Origin: Lancefieldella rimae ATCC 49626
Lineage (GTDB): Bacteria > Actinomycetota > Coriobacteriia > Coriobacteriales > Atopobiaceae
Length of the DNA: 64,000 nucleotides
Direction of reading: 5' to 3'
Assembly: GCF_000174015.1 (NCBI RefSeq)
Contig: NZ_ACFE01000002.1
Location: 376,430 to 440,429 of the forward strand
The translations under genes and the position numbers were made by a program. This document shows positions 7,369-51,080 of this stretch, in pieces. The notes under the pieces are model-generated. The model did not search any database. It had not been told where the DNA came from and was given only the letters and a program-made list of their open reading frames with translations. The first letter of the stretch is position 1; each line of letters starts with the position of its first letter.

Positions 7369-7405
7369 AAAGGAAACTCAGCTTATTGCAAGTTGAGTTT
7401 CCTTT
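7369..7405 (+). terminator. Terminator after the EIIC remnant
   Basis: AAAGGAAACTCA at 7369-7380 pairs perfectly with TGAGTTTCCTTT at 7394-7405 across a 13-nt loop. It lies between the EIIC remnant and the truncated cas1. It probably belongs to the PTS gene, and the cas1 homology begins within about 10 nt of its end. Confidence 0.75.
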
Positions 7406-7411
7406 GTTGTT

Positions 7412-8092
7412 TCTGATGAGAAGAGAAATCCTATAGGTCAGTATTTGCCCTTGTATGGCGCTCACAATACGCCTAAGCGAGTTGTTGAACAGCTTGGATG
7501 GAGTGAACCTTCAAAAAAGCGTGTATGGCAGCGTGTTGTTAGAGATAAGATAACCCATCAGGCGCAGGTTCTTAATGCTCGTGCAAGAGAAGAGATAGGA
7601 CAACAGCTGTTTGGGCTTATTCCAGAGGTTCGGTCAGGAGATACTACAAATAGAGAGGCTCACGCTGCTCGCCTATACTTTCATGCTTTATTTGGGCATG
7701 AATTCTCGCGGGATGATGAAACGCCAATTAATGCAGCGCTTGATTATGGTTATGCGATTCTACTTTCTGCGGTAAATCGTGAGATTGTAGCTCGCGGCTA
7801 TTTGACTCAATCTGGCATCTGCCATAGAAGCGAGTATAACCAGTTTAATCTTGGCTGTGATTTTATGGAACCATTTAGACCGATTGTCGATCGGTTGGTA
7901 TTTGATAACGTTGAAGGTGATTTTACGAAAGATACAAAACGCTTACTGATTGATATGCTTAATCAATCACTTTCTTATCGAGGCGGAGTGTATCGCGTAG
8001 GTTCAATTATCTCGTTGTATGTACAAGACTGTTTGAGTGCACTTAATAAAAGACTATCTATTGATAGCATTGAGGCTTTTGATGCTATATGA
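7412..8092 (+). pseudogene. cas1: cas1 (type II), 5'-truncated
   Basis: The open frame enters Cas1 homology at SDEKRNPIGQYLPLYG, a segment that normally lies about 65-75 residues into type II Cas1. The N-terminal beta domain that forms most of the dimer interface is therefore absent. The catalytic alpha-helical domain remains: the Glu in NREAHAARLYF, the His in CHRSEYNQF and the Glu in DFMEPFRP are all present. About 226 codons remain of a usual 290-300. In-frame TTG codons (for example at 7445) could start a short product, but a functional integrase is unlikely. cas2 overlaps the stop by 4 nt. No cas9 precedes it. Confidence 0.88.
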
Positions 8093-8424
8093 GTGAAAGT
8101 GCCAGGGTTCGTTATATGAGACTTGTTCTGTTCTTTGATCTTCCAGTAGAGACAGCTGTTCAAAGGAAGAATTATAGATTGTTTCGTAAGTTTTTGCTTA
8201 AAGATGGGTTTTTGAGATTACAAGAATCTGTATATGCAAAACTTGTAATTAACGATGGAGCTGCCGGTGCAGCGATTGCACGTGTACGAAAGAATAGACC
8301 TCCCGCTGGTCTTGTGCAAATTCTTAAGGTTACTGAGAGCCAATTTGCAATGATGGACTACATTACAGGGAATCGCGAAGCATATGATGAAGTGGACACT
8401 ATGGAGGAACTCTTGATTTTATGA
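8089..8424 (+). CDS. cas2: CRISPR-associated endonuclease Cas2
   Basis: 111 residues. Cas2 dimers bridge two Cas1 dimers in the spacer integration complex. The ferredoxin-like fold starts with MRLVLFFDLPVET, where the family's conserved Asp follows the first strand, and continues with RLFRKFLLKDGF and LQESVYAKL. The ATG overlaps the cas1 stop (ATGA), and csn2 overlaps the cas2 stop in the same way, so cas1-cas2-csn2 is one coupled operon. A later start at Met10 would also fit. The gene looks intact although cas1 is not. Confidence 0.93.
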   Translation: MSESARVRYMRLVLFFDLPVETAVQRKNYRLFRKFLLKDGFLRLQESVYAKLVINDGAAGAAIARVRKNRPPAGLVQILKVTESQFAMMDYITGNREAYDEVDTMEELLIL

Positions 8425-9101
8425 GACTTATTTTTAGTGGACTAGAAAGAGCAATAAAGATTGAGCCAGGCTTTGCTGCTGTTTTACAGATAGAGAATCA
8501 AGCGTTATTTTCTAGAATTGTTTTATCACTCATGAAAGGGAATAATGAAGACTCTCTTGAACCTTATACATTATGGGACAGAGATGAAAAAGTCTGCTTT
8601 CAAAATCAATCCATTTTCATTTCTGATCCTCTCAATCTTCCTTGGGATAATAAAAGTCTTATAGGAGAGGTTATTAAGAAAATGGAACGCGAGCTTTTAG
8701 AAGATGAAATTATAAGAACTGAGATTGAATCTACTGAGCGTTTGCTTATGACAAATCTAATGAAGCTTGGTGTGGGACTTCAGTCTCAATATGAATTTAG
8801 TTTAGAATGGGACTTTAAGCGATACCTTAAGATGCTTGGTTTTGGTATCGGTATTCAAATAGATCGGCCGTACCTTGATAATTTGATATCTTTCGTTTCA
8901 CTGGCACTTGATGCAGGATGTAATAAGATTCTGACATTTGTTAATCTCAAGACTTTTTTGACAAAAAGTGAGCTTGAAAGGTTCTACGAGTATATATTTT
9001 TCTCGAAAATCCGTGTCTTGTTGCTTGAGAACAAAGTGGATGAGTCGTACTATAAGTACGAACAAAAAAATACCGTTGACCAGCACTTCCTTGAGTTATG
9101 A
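8421..9101 (+). CDS. csn2: Csn2, type II-A CRISPR adaptation protein
   Basis: 226 residues. Csn2 forms a tetrameric ring that slides on DNA ends during spacer acquisition and defines subtype II-A. The sequence begins with MRLIFSGLERAIKIEPG, matches the Csn2 length and has the mixed charged/helical body of the family (about 100-130: ELLEDEIIRTEIESTERLL; later a KILTFVNLKTFLT strand-turn). It is AT-richer than the housekeeping genes. The first array repeat begins only 56 nt after the stop, the standard II-A order cas1-cas2-csn2-array. Confidence 0.85.
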   Translation: MRLIFSGLERAIKIEPGFAAVLQIENQALFSRIVLSLMKGNNEDSLEPYTLWDRDEKVCFQNQSIFISDPLNLPWDNKSLIGEVIKKMERELLEDEIIRTEIESTERLLMTNLMKLGVGLQSQYEFSLEWDFKRYLKMLGFGIGIQIDRPYLDNLISFVSLALDAGCNKILTFVNLKTFLTKSELERFYEYIFFSKIRVLLLENKVDESYYKYEQKNTVDQHFLEL

Positions 9102-9157: not shown

Positions 9158-9390
9158 GTTTTGGAGCAGTGTCATTCTGACTGGTAATCAAACGAGACTG
9201 GATTGGATCGTTTCTTATTAGGGGTTTTGGAGCAGTGTCATTCTGACTGGTAATCAAACTTTTACCGGGGAAATAGAAGCTGACGCGTGTTTTGGAGCAG
9301 TGTCATTCTGACTGGTAATCAAACCTTAGAAGCAGCTTTAAGCAGAGCATATCCGTTTTGGAGCAGTGTCATTCTGACTGGTAATCAAAC
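9158..9390 (+). CRISPR. Type II-A CRISPR array, leader-proximal part (4 repeats, 3 spacers)
   Basis: Four identical 36-bp repeats at 9158-9193, 9224-9259, 9289-9324 and 9355-9390. The repeat starts GTTTTGGAGCAG and ends GGTAATCAAAC, the GTTTT...AAAC form typical of type II-A, in the same orientation as the cas genes. Spacers are 9194-9223 (30 nt), 9260-9288 (29 nt) and 9325-9354 (30 nt). After the fourth repeat the array does not end in a normal way: further repeat copies recur over the next 6.3 kb, separated by long inserts. No tracrRNA anti-repeat was seen by eye. Confidence 0.97.
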
Positions 9391-9558
9391 ACCGATACTG
9401 CTGTAATTGCATCCACCTGTAAAAATACAGAATGTATGTCATATGGGCCTGGAGAACTTGAACGTGCTCATAAACCAAATGAGTACGTCCCTGTAGAAGA
9501 TTTAACACGCGTGTATCGAGTATTTAAATCACTGATAAACACCGTATGCGACTTTTAG
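9391..9558 (+). pseudogene. M20-family peptidase, 3' end fragment
   Basis: Starting at the first base after a CRISPR repeat, the frame reads through 55 codons to TAG at 9556-9558. The segment GPGELERAHKPNEYVPVEDL is the C-terminal signature of M20 metallopeptidases (ArgE/DapE/PepT type), which carries a late zinc-side His. The rest of the gene, about 350 residues, is absent. The cut falls exactly at the repeat border, so the fragment is part of insert 1 (9391-10496). Confidence 0.7.
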
Positions 9559-9599
9559 ACTGATTTATAAGAAGCACTATCTTATGCAATACAACTTAC

Positions 9600-10211
9600 C
9601 TACTGACCTGCATTGTCTGCATTACTTCTTCTTCTCACAAAGAAAACCACGGTTGCTACGCAGAGAATTAACCCCAATACTGCGGGCTTTACAATAGATA
9701 GAGCATCTTCTCCACTAAAGACAAGACTATGAATTACTTTTAGCACCGCACCAGCAGCAATTACCACCAAAAGCCATTTCCATTTTCTGTTCCATGTTGT
9801 AGAAATCAAGAATATAAAGAACAGAATAATCGCGATAAGAGCAACAATTTTATCTGGAGACCAACCACTTGTAAGATACGTTTTCTCAAAATTCAAAAAA
9901 CCGTCTACGCTTTTATCCACTACTGCTGGTTCTGGAAACCAAAACATACTTGTAAACAAACAAAATATTGACGCAAAAGTAATGGTGTATGACCTCTTGA
10001 ACGCTCCAAGAGCTATTGGAATAATAAAAAGAGGTCGAATATACCAGCTTAACGTATTGTGATGACGGGCAAATGCCCACTCAAAGAACGTACTATTAGT
10101 AAAAAAGACTGTAATAATGGCTACCGTTAAAACGGCAAAAACAATTCCACCAATTACGTCGACTTGTTTCAACTTTTGATGTTTATCAGTATGAACTGAA
10201 ACAATACCCAT
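9600..10211 (-). CDS. Hypothetical membrane protein in CRISPR insert 1
   Basis: 203 residues with about five hydrophobic segments (for example near 19-37, 52-70, 75-92, 120-140 and 175-195) and a basic C-terminal end (RRRSNADNAGQ). No family was recognised. It reads opposite to the repeats and is complete within the insert, with a weak AGAAAG-type site before the ATG. AT-rich DNA with no clear gene lies upstream at 10212-10496. A permease-like or stress-related role cannot be told from the sequence. Confidence 0.6.
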   Translation of the reverse strand: MGIVSVHTDKHQKLKQVDVIGGIVFAVLTVAIITVFFTNSTFFEWAFARHHNTLSWYIRPLFIIPIALGAFKRSYTITFASIFCLFTSMFWFPEPAVVDKSVDGFLNFEKTYLTSGWSPDKIVALIAIILFFIFLISTTWNRKWKWLLVVIAAGAVLKVIHSLVFSGEDALSIVKPAVLGLILCVATVVFFVRRRSNADNAGQ

Positions 10212-10496
10212 TTAATACAACGCTTTCTACTTAACCATGCCTTCATTGACATTAGAACCTAAAAAAATACGAACTCAAGTACTATACCCAAACACAAAGT
10301 ACACTTACTCGAATTTTCTGGCAACAAGAACAATTTGATTCTTAATAAATTCATACTTTAAATAAATCTGATAGAAATCCTTTATCTTGTATGTGTACCA
10401 AAATGTATAAAGTCTAAAAGATTAGTATTTTTATAACAGCATGTAATAATGCATTGGAATGGAGAAAGAATGGGAAACTTCCTGCTCGAAGAAACT
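10212..10496. other. Gene-poor end of insert 1
   Basis: AT-rich DNA between the membrane protein and the fifth repeat. The last 38 nt hold two possible starts (10459 and 10470; the second reads MGNFLLEET) that run straight into the CRISPR repeat. It may be the cut 5' end of a gene. Nothing else is recognisable. Confidence 0.4.
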
Positions 10497-10598
10497 GTTT
10501 TGGAGCAGTGTCATTCTGACTGGTAATCAAACCATACCGACGGCAAAGGCTCATGGTGGTACGTTTTGGAGCAGTGTCATTCTGACTGGTAATCAAAC
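10497..10598 (+). CRISPR. CRISPR repeat pair (repeats 5-6) with one 30-nt spacer
   Basis: Two perfect copies of the 36-bp repeat at 10497-10532 and 10563-10598, same orientation as the leader-proximal array, with a 30-nt spacer at 10533-10562. Insert 1 (1106 bp) lies upstream and insert 2 (1152 bp) downstream. Confidence 0.97.
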
Positions 10599-10599
10599 C

Positions 10600-11346
10600 A
10601 CAGAGGGTACCTATACCAGCCGAGCAGCTCAAGCGGAGGAGCTGAAGCGTGAAGGCTTTGAGGAATACACTGTGGAAGTCGTCCATGATGGTCACACTTG
10701 CGAAGAGTGCCACGCTGTGGATGGTAAGACTTTTCGCTTTGATGATGCAGAGCCCGGTGTGAACTTCCCACCACTTCATCCATACTGCAGGTGCCAGATT
10801 GCTCCTGCTGTGACGGATTGGGATGCATGGCAAGCACGCCAGCTTGATAAGACGTCTGAACAGGTAGAGAAAGTGGCGCAAGTGATATCGATCTCCGGCA
10901 AAGCGCGTACAGCGCCCAATCCGTTTAAGCCGGTCCCAGGCACGGGTTCGGTCACCTACGACAAGCCGGAAGATAGGCTGCTTGCGCACGAGGCTAAGGC
11001 GGTCCGCGATCTCGAGGCGCTCGGCTACCAAGTAAAAGTATTGAAAGAAGACGACAAAGCGCCGGCGAATATAGACCTAGAGCTTGGCTCGAAGGGGCAG
11101 CTGTGGGAGATGAAGAACATCGGCGACGGCAAGCACTCAGTCAACGACCAGATGCGCGTGGCCTGTCGCAAATGGAAGAAGCTCGGCATAAGTTCGTCTG
11201 AGTCTCGCGTGGTAATCACTTCATATGGGGCTACTAGAGATGAGCAAGATATCATTGACGAAGTCAAACGCCGCATGAGCAAGTATGCAGTTGAAGTCAT
11301 ATACATCTATCGTGATGGAAGTAAATCAGTGTTCTTATCGAGATAA
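10600..11346 (+). CDS. Phage MuF-type head protein fragment with C-terminal nuclease-toxin domain (5' cut)
   Basis: 248 codons from the repeat border to TAA at 11344-11346. The first 70 residues carry C-x2-C (HTCEEC), FRFDDAEPGVNFPPLHPYCRC, the zinc-like end of phage minor head (MuF/SPP1 gp7) proteins. After a linker (about 95-140) comes a separate domain with an Asp in ANIDLEL, then LWEMKNIG and HSVNDQMR. This D...ExK pattern resembles PD-(D/E)xK or CdiA-C-like polymorphic toxin nucleases. MuF proteins that carry such toxins are known from phages; the activity here is inferred. The N-terminal head domain (usually about 200 residues) is lost at the repeat. A ribosome could not start this piece properly. 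A thioredoxin-like gene follows. Confidence 0.7.
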   Translation, partial: TEGTYTSRAAQAEELKREGFEEYTVEVVHDGHTCEECHAVDGKTFRFDDAEPGVNFPPLHPYCRCQIAPAVTDWDAWQARQLDKTSEQVEKVAQVISISGKARTAPNPFKPVPGTGSVTYDKPEDRLLAHEAKAVRDLEALGYQVKVLKEDDKAPANIDLELGSKGQLWEMKNIGDGKHSVNDQMRVACRKWKKLGISSSESRVVITSYGATRDEQDIIDEVKRRMSKYAVEVIYIYRDGSKSVFLSR

Positions 11347-11460
11347 AGAATGCGAGACCGTGTCCTCCCACTTAGCTGGGCGGGCGTACCTCGCTTCAAT
11401 TGCAATATACCACAGTCTCCAATTTTTATACAGCGACGAGTGGTGATTGGTGGTGAGATT

Positions 11461-11730
11461 ATGCCCAAAGTGATGATTTATGTCGCTGATTGGTGTGCGC
11501 TATGTCGCTCCACGATTCGACGCATTGTGCCGCAGCTGTCAGAAGAAGACATCGAATACGTGGTAGTAGATGTCGGTTGGCATCCAAATGATGCGAAGGA
11601 GCGAGACATTGAACACTTGCCGACGATATGTGTAGTGGACTCCGGCGAGAACGAACTCATGCGCTGTCGTGGATGTCCCACAGATGAAGTACTAGAAAAG
11701 ATTATTGAATTGTGTATTGAGAGCGACTAG
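11461..11730 (+). CDS. Small thioredoxin/glutaredoxin-like protein
   Basis: 89 residues. MPKVMIYVADWCALCRSTIRR has the WC-x2-C redox motif (ADWCALC) directly after the first beta strand, and LPTICVVDSGENEL holds the conserved cis-Pro region, so a thioredoxin fold is likely. GGTGGTGAG precedes the ATG. It stands 114 nt after the MuF-toxin gene and just before a phage-type terminator. Being small and directly downstream, it could be a partner or immunity protein for the toxin, but that is only positional. It is intact within insert 2. Confidence 0.65.
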   Translation: MPKVMIYVADWCALCRSTIRRIVPQLSEEDIEYVVVDVGWHPNDAKERDIEHLPTICVVDSGENELMRCRGCPTDEVLEKIIELCIESD

Positions 11731-11750
11731 GGATAGTCACTTTTTTAATA

Positions 11751-11850
11751 GTTTTGGAGCAGTGTCATTGACTGGTAATCAAACAGGGATGGTAAAAATG
11801 AGAGCTGAGTATCAGTTTTGGAGCAGTGTCATTCTGACTGGTAATCAAAC
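11751..11850 (+). CRISPR. CRISPR repeat pair (repeats 7-8); repeat 7 has a 2-bp deletion
   Basis: Repeat 7 (11751-11784) is 34 bp because CT is lost inside CATTCTGACTGG. Repeat 8 (11815-11850) is perfect. They enclose a 30-nt spacer (11785-11814). The 30 nt before repeat 7 are the terminator of the phage toxin locus. Confidence 0.95.
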
Positions 11851-11879
11851 TAATAATTCGGTAATTTACCGAATTATTA
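11851..11879. repeat. Perfect palindrome at the start of insert 3
   Basis: TAATAATTCGGTAA, one T, then TTACCGAATTATTA: 14-bp arms, perfect, starting at the first base after repeat 8. It would fill the position of a normal spacer. It could be a protein-binding site from the source replicon. Confidence 0.85.
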
Positions 11880-11969
11880 CCACCCAGAAGGCAGTTTAAA
11901 GTTTCGTCCAACGATTGTTAATTAATTATGACTTTTCGTCTGCATCAAAGAAATTATAAGCATATAACT

Positions 11970-12269
11970 TTAATGTTTTTTGATTTTTTCTTTTTCCAAA
12001 TTATATCCGCGAATAAATTCACTGATTTCAAAAGCTTTGTCATTAAATAATTTGTTTGCGACATCAATTGCTAGCTTTGGATAGATCGCAAATGTCCCGC
12101 TTTTTTTATAATCGCTTTGGGCTTTTTGGATACCCATTTCAAAATCGGTTAGATTAGATTGCTGGTTATTCTCGGTTTTCCAAGAAGTATAGGCTGCCTT
12201 GGCATCATCATAGTTTCCCGCTTCGTAATCCTTTTTTATGTAATCATGGATATCTTTCAGCATACTCAT
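11970..12269 (-). CDS. Hypothetical small acidic/helical protein in CRISPR insert 3
   Basis: 99 residues, Lys- and Asp-rich, mostly helical by composition (MSMLKDIHDYIKKDYEAG... FEMGIQKAQSDYKKSG...), no signal peptide or membrane segment. GTGGGG lies upstream of the ATG on the minus strand. The DNA is clearly more AT-rich than the flanking chromosome, suggesting a different source such as a plasmid or another species. No family recognised. It is complete within the 532-bp insert, with some 110 nt of possible promoter region upstream before repeat 9. Confidence 0.55.
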   Translation of the reverse strand: MSMLKDIHDYIKKDYEAGNYDDAKAAYTSWKTENNQQSNLTDFEMGIQKAQSDYKKSGTFAIYPKLAIDVANKLFNDKAFEISEFIRGYNLEKEKIKKH

Positions 12270-12382
12270 AGTATTTGCCCCACTTTCTGAGTTTCTAACT
12301 ACACTGGCTGTTCCATGCTAGTTCTACTCAATTAATTTGTCGATAGCTAGGTGTGGTGAATTTTAAATTACTGTGGTTAAAA

Positions 12383-12484
12383 GTTTTGGAGCAGTGTCAT
12401 TCTGACTGGTAATCAAACAGAGGTTATCGTAGAGTTGCCAGCCGGTGAGTTTTGGAGTAGTGTCATTCTGACTGGTAATCAAAC
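12383..12484 (+). CRISPR. CRISPR repeat pair (repeats 9-10); repeat 10 has one substitution
   Basis: Repeat 9 (12383-12418) is perfect. Repeat 10 (12449-12484) has C to T at position 10 (GTTTTGGAGTAG). The spacer at 12419-12448 is 30 nt. Insert 4 (1087 bp, high GC) follows. Confidence 0.96.
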
Positions 12485-12550
12485 CGCATCCCGTGGGGAG
12501 TCCCTTGTCCCCGCGTCGGCATGGAAGACGATGAAGGACAGGTAAGGAGC

Positions 12551-13111
12551 ATGATGAGACTACAGAAGGTTGGCGCCGTGCTCGCAGGCGCCGTGCTGGT
12601 GTTCGCACTTTCGGGCTGCAATCTGTTCGCCCCGCAGGTCACCGACGACAATTCCGGTTCGACCCAGACGACGAAGGAGGAGACGAAGTCCGACGACTCG
12701 AAGACGAAGTCCGAGGACTATGCCACCAAGCTCGTCGGCACCTATGAGCTGGATAACGAGGACTTCACGGAGAAGGATGGCAAGGTGACGCATGTCTCGA
12801 ACGAGGACTACCAGGCCACGGTCGACCAGACGGGACTGCGCTTCACCCTCGACCTCAAGAGCGACGGCACCGGCATCCTGACGTCGCCCGACATCACGAA
12901 CAAGAGGCAGCGCACGGCCTCGCTCACGTGGAAGACCGATGACGGCAAGAGCATTACCTTCTCGGGCTCCACGGCGGACGACAAGATGGCAGGCCAGATC
13001 GACGGGGACGGCAACATCACCCTCGAGCTCTCCCAGGGCGGCGAGAAGGGCACCTTGGTGTTCAAGAAGATAAGCGACAAGCCCGGTTACTACGGCGGAT
13101 CCTCCAAGTAG
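12551..13111 (+). CDS. Lipoprotein of unknown function (high-GC insert 4)
   Basis: 186 residues from the ATG at 12551, preceded by GGTAAGGAG. The signal peptide ends in a lipobox (FALSGC), so the mature protein is membrane-anchored. A Thr/Lys/Asp-rich linker follows and then a beta-rich domain with VGTYELDNEDF, GTGILTSPD and GNITLELSQGG, like small extracytoplasmic lipocalin-style repeats in coriobacterial lipoproteins. No exact family. GC is well above the rest of the window, closer to Olsenella-type DNA, which points to a foreign source. A terminator follows at 13142-13175. Confidence 0.75.
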   Translation: MMRLQKVGAVLAGAVLVFALSGCNLFAPQVTDDNSGSTQTTKEETKSDDSKTKSEDYATKLVGTYELDNEDFTEKDGKVTHVSNEDYQATVDQTGLRFTLDLKSDGTGILTSPDITNKRQRTASLTWKTDDGKSITFSGSTADDKMAGQIDGDGNITLELSQGGEKGTLVFKKISDKPGYYGGSSK

Positions 13112-13141
13112 GCTCCACCACGGTCGGGTTTTACGTCCGAG

Positions 13142-13175
13142 TCCCAGTCGGCCCTCCGCCGGCTGGGATTTTCCT
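13142..13175 (+). terminator. Terminator between the two lipoproteins
   Basis: CCCAGTCGGC pairs with GCCGGCTGGG, followed by a T-rich stretch (ATTTTCCTTT). It separates the two lipoprotein genes of insert 4. Confidence 0.75.
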
Positions 13176-13226
13176 TTGCCGGGCGATTCTCCTATCATAG
13201 AGGCAGCCGTCATCGAGGAGATGCCC

Positions 13227-13571
13227 ATGCAAACCCGCAAGTTCGTCGCATACCTGTCTGCCTGCGTCCTTGCCGTGGCCCTCATGTGCCTGGTCGGCTG
13301 TACCGCGGCATCGGGGCAAAAGGGGGCGGAAACCCCGACTGAACAATCGTCGGGCGTACCGGTCGTCGGCACATGGCAGGCGACCCGCCTCGACTGGAAG
13401 GACCCGGACGGGGACGACATGGACGAGACGGCCTTGGAGGAGCGCCAGAAGCAGTCCGAGTCGGGCTTCTACATCACGTTCAAGGCCGACGGCACCGGGG
13501 CCTTCTATGCGGAGGACCTGGAGTACCAGGTGAGTTGGAAGTCCTCCGGCGACGCCGTCACCTTTCCTCTG
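13227..13571 (+). pseudogene. Second lipoprotein, 3' cut by a CRISPR repeat
   Basis: From the ATG at 13227 (GAGGAG upstream) it reads 115 residues before the repeat. The signal peptide has the lipobox CLVGC. The mature part, VVGTWQATRLDW...GFYITFKADGTG...YQVSWKSSGD, resembles the first lipoprotein in design (a GTW/GTY opening, then a KADGTG beta hairpin), so the two are probably paralogues. The frame runs into repeat 11 and stops inside it. The natural C-terminus is absent. Confidence 0.75.
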
Positions 13572-13607
13572 GTTTTGGAGCAGTGTCATTCTGACTGGTA
13601 ATCAAAC
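13572..13607 (+). CRISPR. Single CRISPR repeat (repeat 11)
   Basis: Perfect 36-bp copy, same orientation. It cuts the second lipoprotein on its left and begins insert 5 (753 bp) on its right. No normal spacer touches it on either side. Confidence 0.96.
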
Positions 13608-13608
13608 A

Positions 13609-13722
13609 AACACTGCGGATGAGAATAGCGACATTGTACGACCAGATATTTTATTTTCATCAAGCATTGACACTCCTGAAGAATTGGCATTCTACCAGGA
13701 GTTCTTCTCGCAAGAGATGTAG
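13609..13722 (+). pseudogene. Unidentified protein, 3' end fragment
   Basis: Open frame of 37 codons from the repeat border to TAG at 13720-13722 (ends FYQEFFSQEM). It is the tail of an unknown gene whose 5' part is absent. The convergent DUF488 gene lies 18 nt further on. Confidence 0.4.
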
Positions 13723-13740
13723 TTACAGCCCATAAGCCTA

Positions 13741-14100
13741 TTATTTTAATTTACTCTTAAGCCACTTCTTGAGCACTACAGCGTTGTTGTATTTAGTGTC
13801 TTTGTCCGAGAAAAGCAGCGTCACGGTAGTTGAATCGAGCTTTTTGAGCTGTTTAACAAAGGTTTCTGCGTCGGGATTGCTGTTAAGCTCGGCCGTATAC
13901 ATAGACACAAAGTTGTCAAAACGCTCTGGGTCGTGGTTGAATGCTTTTCTACACTCAGTGGTAGGAGCAATAGTTTTAGCCCATTCATCAGCGTGTAAGT
14001 TCTCTTTTTTGATGCCACGAGGCCATAGTCTATCGACAAGCACGCGATACCCATCGTTAGCTTCTGGCGCTTCGTAAGTCCTCTTGAGTTTGATATTCAT
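13741..14100 (-). CDS. DUF488 family protein
   Basis: 119 residues with the DUF488 (YeaO-like) signature VLVDRLWPRGIKKE at 22-35, followed by DEWAKTIAPTTECRKAFNHDP and TLLFSDKD near 95. These small cytoplasmic proteins are widespread and of unknown function. The start at 14100 has GGGAGCAACA before the ATG; a longer frame to 14265 is less likely. It is complete inside insert 5 and divergent from the ilvE fragment that follows. Chromosomal in character rather than phage-like. Confidence 0.85.
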   Translation of the reverse strand: MNIKLKRTYEAPEANDGYRVLVDRLWPRGIKKENLHADEWAKTIAPTTECRKAFNHDPERFDNFVSMYTAELNSNPDAETFVKQLKKLDSTTVTLLFSDKDTKYNNAVVLKKWLKSKLK

Positions 14101-14236
14101 TGTTGCTCCCTTCAGCTCATGTACGTTATACCGCAAAATAACTATTCGGTTACAAACTATTTGATATGGCAAGGTATTCAAATTTGCACGTTTAAGATGG
14201 AGTTCATTCTTTGAAATCCACGGAGAAAGGAAAGCC

Positions 14237-14360
14237 ATGGCAAACTCAGTGGAGAAGAAAGACATCGATTGGACATCGCTTGGCTTTGCATATACGCAGT
14301 GTGATTACAGTTACGTTGCCCACTACAAAGATGGTGCTTGGGATGAAGGTGGACTTACTA
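14237..14360 (+). pseudogene. ilvE: Branched-chain amino acid aminotransferase, 5' fragment
   Basis: From the ATG at 14237 (GGAGAAAGG upstream) it encodes 41 residues with IDWTSLGFAY and YVAHYKDGAWDEGGLT, the N-terminal signature of bacterial BCATs, in a form typical of Coriobacteriia. The frame is then cut by repeat 12 and runs SFGAVSF-stop through the repeat. About 300 residues, including the PLP lysine, are missing. That an amino-acid biosynthesis gene sits in a CRISPR insert is notable: it is not phage DNA. Confidence 0.72.
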
Positions 14361-14396
14361 GTTTTGGAGCAGTATCATTCTGACTGGTAATCAAAC
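14361..14396 (+). CRISPR. Single CRISPR repeat (repeat 12), one substitution
   Basis: 36 bp with G to A at position 14 (AGTATCATTC). It ends insert 5 inside ilvE and opens insert 6 (606 bp). Confidence 0.95.
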
Positions 14397-14462
14397 TGTC
14401 CCTGGCATCTTGCCGGCGGGGATGTGAACTGCAGCAGGCGAGGACATGCGTGAGGAGAAGAC

Positions 14463-14681
14463 ATGCTGTTTGGAAGACGGAAAGTTGTCGACAAGGTAAC
14501 CCAGAACGACGACGGGACGACGACCGTCGAGATGCACGATCCGACGAAGGTGGAGATGACTACCGACGGCAAAGTCGGCGTCAACCTCTTCGACAAGGAG
14601 GTCGTGAAGGGTAAGACAGTCGGTACCGAGAAGGAGGTTTCCATCGACCTGAAGTCGCTGTTCCGTCGTAAGAAGAAGTAA
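14463..14681 (+). CDS. Hypothetical small basic protein in insert 6
   Basis: 72 residues, opening MLFGRRKVVDKV and closing LKSLFRRKKK, with a Thr/Val/Lys-rich beta-type middle (DDGTTTVEMHDPTKVEMTTD). GTGAGGAGAAGAC gives a good ribosome-binding site. No family recognised. Basic ends suggest contact with nucleic acid or membrane, but this is not established. It is complete within the insert. Confidence 0.5.
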   Translation: MLFGRRKVVDKVTQNDDGTTTVEMHDPTKVEMTTDGKVGVNLFDKEVVKGKTVGTEKEVSIDLKSLFRRKKK

Positions 14682-14859
14682 CGGACAAGGGTTCTTCCAG
14701 TCCTTTAGGCCAGGACAGACGTTCGTGTTTGAGATCGTGTGCAAAAAGGTATTCGTTTGGGACTGGAGGTATCTTGTCGAAGGCTTCCGGAGGCCCGCGG
14801 CTCTATCCCAGTCTTACAAACGCCCAGTTGGCGTCCTCCTGCGTAGGATCCTGGGGTCA

Positions 14860-15002
14860 AGTCCGAATCAGTGTGTAAATTCGCAACCGTCCCCCTCAGG
14901 CCACCATCTTCAGCCGCCGTTGGTTCTCGGCTATCCCGGCGAGGTGGCCCGCCCCCGCTTCGAGCGCCTTCCGCGACGGCCTGTAGTAGCGCTGCCTTGA
15001 GT
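14860..15002 (-). mobile_element. Possible insertion-sequence end with transposase C-terminus
   Basis: On the minus strand an open frame enters from repeat 13 and reads RQRYYRPSRKALEAGAGHL and AENQRRLKMVA before a stop at 14896-14898. The DNA after the stop contains GCGAATTTACACACTGATTC followed by a GGACTTGACCCC run, resembling the outer ends of IS256-type elements. The rest of the element is absent and the family is not certain. It may instead be another kind of transposase tail. Between 14682 and 14860 nothing was recognised. Confidence 0.4.
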
Positions 15003-15038
15003 GTTTTGGAGCAGTGTCATTCTGACTGGTAATCAAAC
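15003..15038 (+). CRISPR. Single CRISPR repeat (repeat 13)
   Basis: Perfect 36-bp copy in the same orientation, between the IS-like end and the terminase fragment (insert 7, 597 bp). Confidence 0.96.
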
Positions 15039-15635
15039 GATGTGCTGGTTTACCCAGGCGTCTCTTGAGCGTGGGGGATTGTGGTCAAAGAAACGGAAGT
15101 ACACAGAGCCTTCAGGCGCGTCTCTTGTGACGGACTGCATAACCACTCTAAGCTCACCCCAGCCGTCGAACTGATCCACCTCAGAAAACCATTGATAGGC
15201 GTAATACGTTCCGTTTGGCGCTTTGATGGCTTTGGTCTTTTGTGTACGGTCGCCGCCACGGAAGGTGATTACTTGCCCTGTAGTGTGCCTGGTGAGCTTA
15301 TAGGGGCTCTTGGAAGCGGTCCACTCATCGCGTATACCGAGCTTATCGAGCGCCCAGAGCATCTGTTCAAAGACACCCTCGCCAATGTCTTTTCCAATCT
15401 TTGGCATCACAAAGGCACTTCTATCCTCATGTTCCATGAGACCAGCTGCAATCTCCAAAGAAACAGTAGAGCTCTTAAGCGAAAAACGCCCTCCTCTCAG
15501 CCACCACTCACCACCTGCATCTGCCGCAATGGCCCGATACAAAGCAAGGAAAGGAGGAGCTAAGAGAAGGGCGAAGTCTGCCACAAACGGCAGCTTATCG
15601 TCTGTTGTATTTTCCGGGATTGCATCTAAGAGCGT
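15039..15635 (-). pseudogene. Phage terminase large subunit, internal fragment
   Basis: One open frame fills the insert on the minus strand, cut by a repeat at each end. It contains the ATPase P-loop variant GGRFSLKSS, the segment FVMPKIGKDIGEGVFEQM and the Walker-B-like FSEVDQFDGW, as in PBSX-family terminases that pump DNA into the phage head. About 195 of a usual 420-450 residues are present: the C-terminal nuclease domain and the start are missing. It reads opposite to the MuF and scaffold pieces, though in a phage all would read the same way, so this insert is inverted relative to them. Confidence 0.85.
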
Positions 15636-15671
15636 GTTTTGGAGCAGTGTCATTCTGACTGGTAATCAAAC
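15636..15671 (+). CRISPR. Last type II-A CRISPR repeat (repeat 14)
   Basis: Perfect 36-bp copy. Downstream there is no further copy. The next 30 nt belong to a phage terminator hairpin, and the DNA then continues as phage structural-gene sequence. Confidence 0.96.
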
Positions 15672-15713
15672 CGCATTAAAAAAGCGACTAGGGATAGTCG
15701 CTTTTTTAATGCG
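15672..15713 (+). terminator. Perfect 19-bp-arm terminator hairpin of phage origin
   Basis: CGCATTAAAAAAGCGACTA, a GGGA loop and TAGTCGCTTTTTTAATGCG form a perfect inverted repeat starting at the first base after repeat 14. A close variant lies at about 11722-11750, after the thioredoxin-like gene and directly before repeat 7. Both probably represent the same terminator between the MuF-toxin unit and the scaffold gene in the source phage. Confidence 0.85.
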
Positions 15714-15794
15714 TGACCAGGACGGGAAGTCACTAAAAGCTCGTGAGAAAAGGTACGCCGACAGCCTGGGAATGTCGGGAGAAAAGGAGATGCT

Positions 15795-15985
15795 ATGGAA
15801 GGCAACAACAAGACTACGACAACGACAACCACTACTACATCGAACGCGGGAGACTCTAAACAACGGCCAGCAGCGACCACACCGCAAGGCACTGGCGCTG
15901 ACCCGAAACAGCTGGAAGGCGACAATAAGGGTGGCAAAAACAGCGAGCTGAAATATACAGACGCTGATGCGGATGCCATTATTGC
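15795..15985 (+). pseudogene. Phage scaffold-like protein (DUF4355 type), N-terminal fragment
   Basis: 63 residues from an ATG after GGAGAAAAGGAG. A run of Thr is followed by a charged linker and then LKYTDADADAIIA, the opening of DUF4355-type phage capsid scaffold proteins (usually YTDEDVDKII). The sequence then stops being phage: it joins a type I-E-like CRISPR repeat at 15986. The reading frame happens to stay open through the repeat into the next piece, so an automatic call would fuse the two. Confidence 0.6.
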
Positions 15986-16018
15986 GTGTTCCCCGCGTAG
16001 GCGGGGGGGGGGTGATCC
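15986..16018 (+). CRISPR. Single type I-E-like CRISPR repeat with extended G-run
   Basis: GTGTTCCCCGCGTAGGCG followed by a run of G and GTGATCC. This is the GTGTTCCCCGC...GCGGGG...GATCC form of type I-E repeats in actinobacteria (normally 28 bp), here 33 bp because the G-run has about 10 instead of 5 residues. Only one copy exists and no type I-E cas gene is in the window. It joins phage scaffold DNA to a ParB-like gene piece. Confidence 0.8.
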
Positions 16019-16019
16019 T

Positions 16020-16500
16020 ACTTCGTCTGAAAGGCTTCATGTGAAGATTTCTGACATTATCCCGTATGAGCGTAATGCACGGCATAACAAGAAGGCAATT
16101 CCAGCTGTTGCAGACTCTATCCGGGAGTTTGGTTTACGTGGCCAAATTGTCCTAGAAAGCCGACAAAACCCGGTTATTGTCACGGGTCATATACGCGTTG
16201 CGTCGTGTAAATCGCTTGGCTGGGCTGAGATACCGGACGAGAATATCGCGTACTGTGACGGTCTTACTGAGGATCAAATCAAGGCGTATCGTATTGCGGA
16301 CAACAAGACGGGCGAGATTTCAACATGGAATATCTCCATGCTCAAAAGCGAGGTTAAAAGCATCGGCAAGCTGGATATGTCAAAGTTCGGCTGTGATTTC
16401 AAAAACAAAAGCCTCACGTATGGCGCAGAGCGACTAAAAACAGACAAAGGCTATAACCTCGATATCATCAATCGTTGCGATTGCGGGGCATCAAAAGCGC
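16020..16500 (+). pseudogene. ParB-like nuclease domain protein (phage), fragment
   Basis: About 160 residues. ISDIIPYERNARHNKKAI, VADSIREFGLRGQIVL and VIVTGHIRVASCKSLGW are the ParB/Srx N-terminal domain as found in phage proteins that precede DNA methylases. YCDGLTEDQIKAYRIADNKT and the later NLDIINRCDCG fit the usual linker. The 5' end is replaced by a CRISPR repeat, and the 3' end runs into an intergenic repeat element at 16503. No start codon with a ribosome-binding site is visible. Confidence 0.75.
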
Positions 16501-16502
16501 TC

Positions 16503-16639
16503 TTTAGTGGTGATTTGATTCACCACTAAACGCTCAAATTCCGGAAAAACCACCACTAAACATCGTTTTTACGGGAAAATCCACCACTAAACAGTCGATT
16601 TCCGGCAGATTCCAGAAATTCTCGTTTAGTGGTGGATTT
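16503..16639 (+). repeat. TTTAGTGGTG intergenic repeat element, copy A
   Basis: Five copies of TTTAGTGGTG or its complement CACCACTAAA (16503, 16521, 16551, 16582, 16625) with conserved spacers such as CAGTCGATTTCCGGCAGATT. A second copy in inverted orientation, over 85% similar by eye along about 137 bp, is at 43055-43191. It forms the right end of the phage-derived DNA. Confidence 0.85.
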
Positions 16640-16666
16640 GCTAGCAAAAATTCTCGTTTGCTTCCG

Positions 16667-29044: not shown

Positions 29045-29154
29045 TTTTGTTTCAATTAAAAACTGCCTGAACGAGCGCCGTATTGGTTGAACTTTGTAGT
29101 GCTGCCAGGGCTCTAGGGCTACCAGAGCTACCGGAACTTTGTAGTGCTGCTAGC

Positions 29155-29313
29155 GCTGCCAAAAATGCGCCAAGTATGGCTTGGATTACCATACTTACTG
29201 CAAGTTTGGTATATATAGACCATACTTGCTGCAAGTATGGCAAATCGTGCTCAACTTGCTGCAAGTTTGGCAGCGCTATTCCAGTAGCACTAACTTGGCG
29301 TATTTTCGGCAGC
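29155..29313. repeat. GCTGCC-ended inverted-repeat element, copy A
   Basis: The left end GCTGCCAAAAATGCGCCAAG is mirrored at the right end, whose complement begins GCTGCCGAAAATACGCCAAG. The 159-bp interior is built from repeats of CTTGCTGCAAGTATGG, including a near-perfect palindrome at 29220-29240. Related copies lie at 49361-49480 and 50952-51080. The remainder of 28975-29417 holds the operator and no gene. Confidence 0.75.
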
Positions 29314-43054: not shown

Positions 43055-43191
43055 AAAACCACCACTAAACGAGAATTTCTGAAATCTGCCGGAAATCGAC
43101 TGTTTAGTGGTGGTTTTTCCCGTAAAAACGATATTTAGTGGTGGTTTTTCTCGGATTTGAGCGTTTAGTGGTGAATCAAATCACCACTAAA
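43055..43191 (-). repeat. TTTAGTGGTG intergenic repeat element, copy B
   Basis: Reverse-complement relative of 16503-16639, with the same five motif copies (43060, 43103, 43134, 43164, 43182) and the shared block AATCTGCCGGAAATCGACTG. It lies in the 347-bp gap between pcp and prs, together with a terminator at 43248-43282 and no gene. Confidence 0.85.
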
Positions 43192-49360: not shown

Positions 49361-49480
49361 GCTGCCGGAAATGTACCAAGTTGGGCTATATTAACCAAAC
49401 TTGCTGTAAGTATGGTTAATATAGCCACATTTGCTGCAAGTATGGCAGGCTAGAGCCAAACTTGGTGCGTTTTTGGCAGC
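49361..49480. repeat. GCTGCC-ended inverted-repeat element, copy B
   Basis: Left end GCTGCCGGAAATGTACCAAG, right end complement GCTGCCAAAAACGCACCAAG, 120 bp apart. The interior repeats CTTGCTGTAAGTATGG and TTGCTGCAAGTATGG. Related to 29155-29313. Confidence 0.75.
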
Positions 49481-49591
49481 ACACTATCAGCAGCACAACT
49501 CAGCAGCGCGCTACTTGCCATCACTACTCGGCAATACTATCAGCAACACTACCGGTAGCACTAAAGACTTTTCGGATTGCAGCACATAATT

Positions 49592-50662: not shown

Positions 50663-50951
50663 AGATACGATGCTACATTACTTCTAAAAAAGTTATTTGA
50701 CCGCTATCTGACAGGTGTCTGACTGGAATTCAAGTGAAAAAGAATAAGAGGAAGCGTGGCATAGTCGAAACAATTTAGGCGTTTATAGGTTTTGTATAGA
50801 TTTGGAAGATTTTGTTTTTGCTCATTCACAGAATCTCCATGTCTAGCCTTCTGATAGGAGTATTTAAACGAGCTACTTAATGAAGTACTTAGGGTTTCGT
50901 GACTTTAGGGAGACTGCTTAGAGGAGCTGTTTAGAGAGGCTGCTTAGAGAG

Positions 50952-51080
50952 GCTGCCGGAAATGCGCCAAGTTGGTCTTGAGTTAACCAAACTTGCAGCA
51001 AATGTGGCAAAACTAACCATACTTGCAGTAAGTTTTGGTGAATGTAGCCATACTTGCTGCAAATGTGGCAAATGCGAGTA
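50952..51080. repeat. GCTGCC-ended element, copy C (right end unclear)
   Basis: Left end GCTGCCGGAAATGCGCCAAG, interior repeats CTTGCAGCAAATGTGG and CTTGCTGCAAATGTGG. The right end is not as clear as in copies A and B. The 520-bp gap 50663-51182 otherwise holds no gene; short direct repeats of GAGGCTGCTTAGA lie just upstream of the element. Confidence 0.6.

Follow-up and report, generated by a model that had tools for sequence, protein, structure and literature searches.

A single type I-E-like CRISPR repeat in Lancefieldella rimae ATCC 49626 stands just downstream of a type II-A array whose repeats enclose kilobase-scale pieces of foreign DNA, and we tentatively favor the reading that it is the relic of a real composite array, which took up long, untrimmed DNA by Cas1-Cas2-type integration. 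The repeat, located at 15986-16018 on the plus strand of the 64,000-nucleotide stretch of DNA that was analyzed (the window), is 33 nt long and has the sequence GTGTTCCCCGCGTAGGCGGGGGGGGGGTGATCC. It contains a run of 10 G where the usual 28-nt form has 5, as the initial annotation had estimated when it put the run at about five residues longer than in the 28-bp form. The annotation was also correct in describing the repeat as solitary: its core is matched once in the window, where 0 matches are expected (100 shuffles), and once in the whole genome when the exact pattern is used.

In Lachnoanaerobaculum, Lacticaseibacillus absianus and some MAGs the form with 28 nt and 5 G builds arrays whose gaps measure 33 nt, the call of type I-E for the arrays of the two named taxa being made from repeat and spacing and not from neighboring cas genes. 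The repeat of the window matches the repeats of these 28/33-nt arrays save for the five extra G, and we take it to be of type I-E from the consensus of that type and from the spacing of the arrays elsewhere. In the I-E-type array of Lachnoanaerobaculum sp. OBRC5-5 (L083) one of 50 gaps measures 541 nt. A succession of at least two repeats with 32-33-nt spacers, as in a type I-E array, was not found in the genome with the exact pattern. Of the I-E cas genes the search covered cas1, and no I-E Cas1 was found in the genome, the sole Cas1 match being a truncated type II enzyme; the earlier statement that type I-E cas genes are missing thus stands for Cas1. The initial annotation had proposed a search for an array with this repeat in related strains; by exact pattern the I-E-like repeat occurs in one of 140 genomes of the family, the Lancefieldella rimae genome. 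A repeat pattern search found no IMG/VR contig with the repeat either, and no second copy of the junction at 15986-16018 was found in IMG/VR, the 140 family genomes or the genome itself, which we count against the relic-array account.

The type II-A locus upstream is on the plus strand. Its cas1 remnant (7376..8092), the only Cas1 match in the genome, is without the first ~63-75 residues and has an in-frame TGA upstream; it matches residues 64-299 of the Cas1 of genome G278 at 63% (tblastn) and TIGR03639 from profile position 76. It is followed by cas2 (8104..8421; TIGR01573, E 2e-17) and csn2 (8421..9101; TIGR01866, E 5e-64). Cas9, searched for in the window and the array loci, had no match in the window. 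The row that begins at 9158 is made up of 14 II-A repeats, all on the plus strand and one of them shortened by a 2-nt deletion, together with seven long inserts (A-G) and six spacers of normal length. It opens on the leader-proximal side with four 36-nt repeats and three normal spacers of 29-30 nt (9158..9390), a normal spacing nearest the leader that we count against the integration account. Then come insert A (9391..10496; 1106 nt), a repeat, a 30-nt spacer and a repeat (10497..10598), insert B (10599..11750, plus strand; 1152 nt) with a phage MuF fragment (PF04233) and a thioredoxin-like gene (PF00085), the 34-nt repeat carrying the deletion, a spacer and a repeat (11751..11850), insert C (11851..12382; 532 nt), a repeat, a 30-nt spacer and a repeat (12383..12484), and insert D (12485..13571, plus strand; 1087 nt, 62% GC). 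From here on single repeats alternate with inserts: a repeat at 13572..13607, insert E (13608..14360, minus strand; 753 nt) with a DUF488 gene, a repeat at 14361..14396, insert F (14397..15002, plus strand; 606 nt), a repeat at 15003..15038, insert G (15039..15635, minus strand; 597 nt) and the last II-A repeat at 15636..15671. Insert G comes from within a terminase large subunit gene (PF04466, E 1e-16) and is open at both ends. The seven inserts between II-A repeats are 0.5-1.2 kb long; an eighth, H, of 0.3 kb, lies between the last II-A repeat and the I-E-like repeat, beyond which insert I follows.

Insert H (15672-15985, plus strand; 314 nt) consists of an imperfect palindrome of 42 nt (15672-15713) and, further on, the 5' end of a phage scaffold gene (ATG at 15795). 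The open reading frame 15795-15985, which forms the left flank of the I-E-like repeat, had been taken for the N-terminus of a scaffold protein. Its own sequence gives this identity weak backing (a 19-aa match, E 3e-5), with no match in Pfam or PHROG and no relative found in IMG/VR; firmer backing comes from the 108 nt at 15683-15790, which are 100% identical to the DNA upstream of a DUF4355/phrog_172 scaffold gene in a prophage on contig C7 of the same genome, although the coding parts of the two genes diverge. The match to the C7 prophage starts only at 15683, inside the palindrome. On the other side of the repeat, insert I (16019-16490, plus strand) is a ParB-like gene fragment (phrog_620, E 1.6e-30), which is 75% identical to an IMG/VR contig, has relatives at 13 loci in IMG/VR and has no Pfam match. 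The initial annotation had rightly seen a ParB-like gene here and had described it as lacking a start; a GTG at 16041, preceded by GAAAGG, is a plausible start, since it yields VKISDIIPYERN and lines up with the ATG at which the relative in L003 starts. Insert I ends at a dispersed resident repeat of ~160 nt (16490-16652), which occurs at ~20 other places in the genome and marks the return to native DNA. One further copy of this element lies within the window on the minus strand (43055-43191). A short diverged repeat family is present in both orientations at 29151-29278, 49361-49494 and 50939-51073.

Two of the inserts could be traced to a single source. Insert A is one contiguous stretch of the chromosome of genome G023 (94%), and so is insert E (13611-14360; 95%), both matches ending at, or no more than 3 nt from, the repeats, which thus bound the inserts precisely. 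G023 is a single-contig genome with a 1.5-Mb chromosome from another species of the same genus, presumably L. parvula. Elsewhere in the L. rimae genome the two regions have native counterparts with 65-78% identity to G023; both inserts are foreign and uninterrupted. Insert B matches the C7 prophage at its ends and in order (79% over 10627-10833, 92% over 11449-11749), its middle being without a match. A pattern search of G023 found one lone II-A repeat with flanks unlike each other. The right flank is 94% identical to 14358-14760 of the window, through the repeat and into insert F, of which 14397-14760 is shared and the part beyond 14760 has no match there; the junction of repeat and insert F therefore exists in an independent single-contig genome. 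The left flank has no Pfam match and by eye is deoC-like.

Other searches for sources gave no DNA matches for the window inserts in phage and plasmid collections, none for the arrays of G163 and G226 in the phage collection, and none for two window spacers in IMG/VR; when 166 spacers were compared with the fetched loci, the full-length matches among those listed were arrays. The region from MuF to scaffold of phages is the source of several inserts, B and H in the window and others in L113, L173, L109 and L184, and one insert from this region encodes a papain-fold toxin domain. In G023 the right-hand source flanks of A (GCAACCA) and E (CCAATCA) agree at 5 of 7 positions, but the B flank in the C7 prophage (CGTGACC) departs from both, and for this reason no PAM is claimed. 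Among 50 inserts, a set from which a gap was removed if it contained N or if a repeat at its edge had over 3 mismatches, and to which one missed window repeat was added by hand, there is no motif at insert positions 31-36, and there are no conserved ends or terminal inverted repeats.

The long inserts recur in other genomes. The exact II-A pattern, which variants such as that of G039 escape, matched 33 of 395 genomes of the order, and 30 II-A loci were read, for which G039 and 29 of the 33 matching genomes were the source. In several families of this one order, pieces of phage or foreign chromosome of 0.1-2.5 kb lie between precise repeats. Altogether 76 of 527 inter-repeat gaps exceed 60 nt, the other 451 measuring 26-34 nt; the window array entered this readout with 13 repeats and one 1216-nt gap, its repeat with the 2-nt deletion having been missed. 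Long gaps are enriched where no intact II-A Cas1 was found: they make up 50 of 96 gaps in 14 loci from genomes without it (46 normal) and 26 of 431 in 16 loci from genomes with it (405 normal), where the classes were assigned by PF01867 score or adjacent genes, the gaps of one array are not independent and some arrays are cut by contig ends. Decay of the II-A system seems to raise the share of long inserts. No weight was given to a 1690-nt gap in G043 (a duplicated stretch with N), to a 1981-nt gap in G120 (a 597-aa open reading frame for a putative transposase and half a repeat) or to gaps in G031 that adjoin N runs.

Six genomes with such arrays (G163, G226, G258, G216, G058 and G059) had no Cas1 match at all, G226 being 92% complete. 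In G163 the array lies on a 1.73-Mb contig of a 3-contig genome and has 15 perfect repeats, with 8 of its 15 gaps long; as no Cas1 match accompanies these perfect repeats, the enzyme would have disappeared recently or worked from another place, which we count against the integration account. G258 and G270 are single-contig genomes with long inserts. In G270 cas9-cas1-cas2-csn2 stand beside the array, in which long gaps of 1687, 889, 625 and 1242 nt come after many normal ones, beyond gap 43; an extra stretch of G270 beside an intact cas set, with 3 long and 56 short gaps, is outside the counts for the 30 loci. G342, G320, G120 and G199 also retain cas genes and have long gaps, so loss of Cas9 is not required. 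The candidate explanation that long inserts follow the loss of cas genes is weakened by G270, with its four cas genes and a mostly normal array upstream. Where the cas genes are intact, most long gaps are leader-distal (18 of 19 in the four loci of this kind that were read first), and the array of G342 (L182) runs through 27 normal gaps before 12 long ones with decayed repeats. Six loci without adjacent cas genes (L172, L173, L112, L114, L183 and L185) have an array that starts with a TTTGACT-type repeat-like copy, preceded by a conserved stretch; this first copy may be the anti-repeat that ends a tracrRNA gene, together with the terminator.

The same pattern is found beside I-E-like repeats. 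Of the 30 loci, 4 have them downstream of the II-A array on its strand, and one has such a repeat upstream. When the flanks of all 30 were scanned with a looser I-E pattern, there were eight matches downstream on the array strand (one in the window, two in G043, one in G035 and four in G277), one upstream on the array strand (G339) and one downstream on the opposite strand (G321); in resampled sequence the mean was 0.88 matches and the largest number 4. In G277 (L184) the four I-E-like repeats, which follow a normal II-A array, are separated by gaps of 1366, 416 and 984 nt, the first of which contains an open reading frame that resembles the C-terminus of the C7 MuF protein (E 6e-8) and has no Pfam match. 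In G339 an I-E repeat precedes the first II-A repeat by 467 nt, with a HicB-like gene between them. G277 and G339 are independent composite cases. Most I-E arrays of the order keep a spacing of 33 nt, but a 2048-nt gap occurs in G378, and gaps of 1752 and 664 nt occur in G389, whose repeats are decayed. The repeats and long gaps beside II-A arrays elsewhere make the earlier suggestion plausible that one process underlies the common pattern of both repeat types, and the repeat of the window fits a class in which what is left of an I-E array adjoins a II-A array and long foreign pieces take the place of spacers.

The origin that we propose is as follows. Foreign pieces, phage genes and chromosome of a related species, would become bounded by the repeats of the II-A array and, just downstream, likewise by those of a partly preserved I-E array of which one repeat is left. 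The agents would most likely be Cas1-Cas2-type integrases, which would insert long linear DNA, left untrimmed, at the repeats and duplicate the repeat as usual; if trimming of prespacers failed, long inserts with normal repeat duplication would result. Such uptake may be occasional in intact systems and dominate arrays whose II-A genes are decayed. The available text of PMC8034620 describes for type II-A a Cas9-containing complex that trims prespacers to ~30 bp and Cas1-Cas2 that alone accepted unprocessed substrates in vitro. Length control that has weakened may accordingly be the reason for the long inserts; against this account we count that, in the same text, the Cas9 nuclease was dispensable for normal spacer length in vivo (PMC8034620). 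The I-E-like repeat would on this proposal be resident rather than imported.

The strongest rival to integration is slow survival of rare long units: these would persist while short spacers are deleted between close repeats, and units of repeat plus insert would move by recombination at repeats. The leader-distal position of most long gaps in arrays with intact cas genes, including those after gap 43 in G270, the decay of the leader-distal repeats in G342, and the repeat plus insert F common to two species at 94% all agree with it. We nevertheless think it rather unlikely, since G163, in which more than half of the gaps are long, has no imperfect copy among its 15 true repeats, which makes this array too young for slow enrichment. 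A separate question is whether the I-E repeat arrived as a passenger within one captured fragment (H-repeat-I) of the I-E array of another bacterium. Lachnoanaerobaculum, from which the repeat type is known, is an oral genus, and the absence of an I-E Cas1 match in this genome would suit a passenger; however, in the retrieved portions of 11 loci no spacer matches either flank, and in other genomes I-E-like repeats are similarly placed and oriented next to II-A arrays, which suggests a resident relic, so that we regard import as distinctly improbable.

Homologous recombination could also have produced long inserts if incoming DNA recombined with a pair of normal spacers acquired earlier from a single source, so that the segment between them was exchanged for part of an array that had ceased to defend itself. 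The enrichment seen where an intact II-A Cas1 is missing would then be expected, since matching DNA might escape cutting in such genomes, but two spacers within ~1 kb of a 1.5-Mb chromosome would be needed twice, for A and for E, arrays with intact cas genes have long gaps as well, and positions 31-36 of the inserts show no motif; this origin is very unlikely. That the junctions are an assembly chimera, with phage or other bacterial reads joined through spacer-protospacer identity or through the repeats, was the reading of the initial annotation. The genome is a draft of 9 contigs, the inserts are foreign, the run of 10 G equals two runs of five, and N runs occur in the G043 and G031 arrays and a duplicated stretch in G043. 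Against this, G258 and G270, both single-contig genomes, and G163, with 3 contigs, have the pattern as well, the junction of repeat and F is present in G023, and two joins to one stretch of ~1 kb would be required for A and likewise for E; a join of spacer and protospacer also predicts the motif that the 50 inserts lack, although PAMs may differ between species. A chimera is therefore hardly credible, and for the II-A inserts it was rejected on account of the contiguity of A and E in G023, the junction found there and the recurrence of long inserts in many genomes, some of them single-contig; for the I-E junction the rejection is less complete. An independent record, which had been named as an argument against a chimera, thus exists for the junction of II-A repeat and insert F, but none was found for the junction at the I-E repeat.

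If long inserts are indeed acquired by integration, it is conceivable, though we hold it with more doubt than conviction, that CRISPR integrases of types II-A and I-E alike sometimes capture kilobase-long DNA, which decayed arrays store, and that this is an order-wide, natural return to casposon-like capture. A fixed spacer length is the usual view of CRISPR adaptation; the long-insert arrays may show how CRISPR integration proceeds when the control of spacer length fails. They would make the determinants of this length testable in natural genomes, and CRISPR arrays would be a place where foreign DNA is kept. A published description of such arrays with kilobase inserts was not found in the literature searched, outside which most subscription papers lay.

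Compared with known systems, the locus has in common with a type II-A system the 36-nt repeats, the six normal spacers of ~30 nt, cas2, csn2 and the remnant of a type II cas1, and differs from an intact cas9-cas1-cas2-csn2 locus by the truncation of cas1, the lack of cas9 in the window and the kilobase-scale inserts. With a type I-E array it shares the sequence type of the repeat and differs from it in the single copy, the five extra G, the missing 33-nt spacer and the missing I-E Cas1. Gene cassettes of integrons are unrelated DNA segments in a row with a recurring short site between them. The window array is likewise a row of unrelated segments split by a short recurring site; the site, however, is a CRISPR repeat, and many of the inserts hold gene fragments. 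Isolated CRISPR arrays resemble some of the loci described here in that cas genes are not nearby; in the available text of PMC5294841 long spacers are mentioned only as a cause of split array calls and not as kilobase-long inserts. From casposons, as they appear in the available text of PMC6977970, the inserts of the window differ by having unrelated sources and no shared terminal motif, whereas the placing of kilobase-long DNA at a duplicated target by a Cas1-family enzyme, of which the casposon transposases are members, would be alike in both (PMC6977970).
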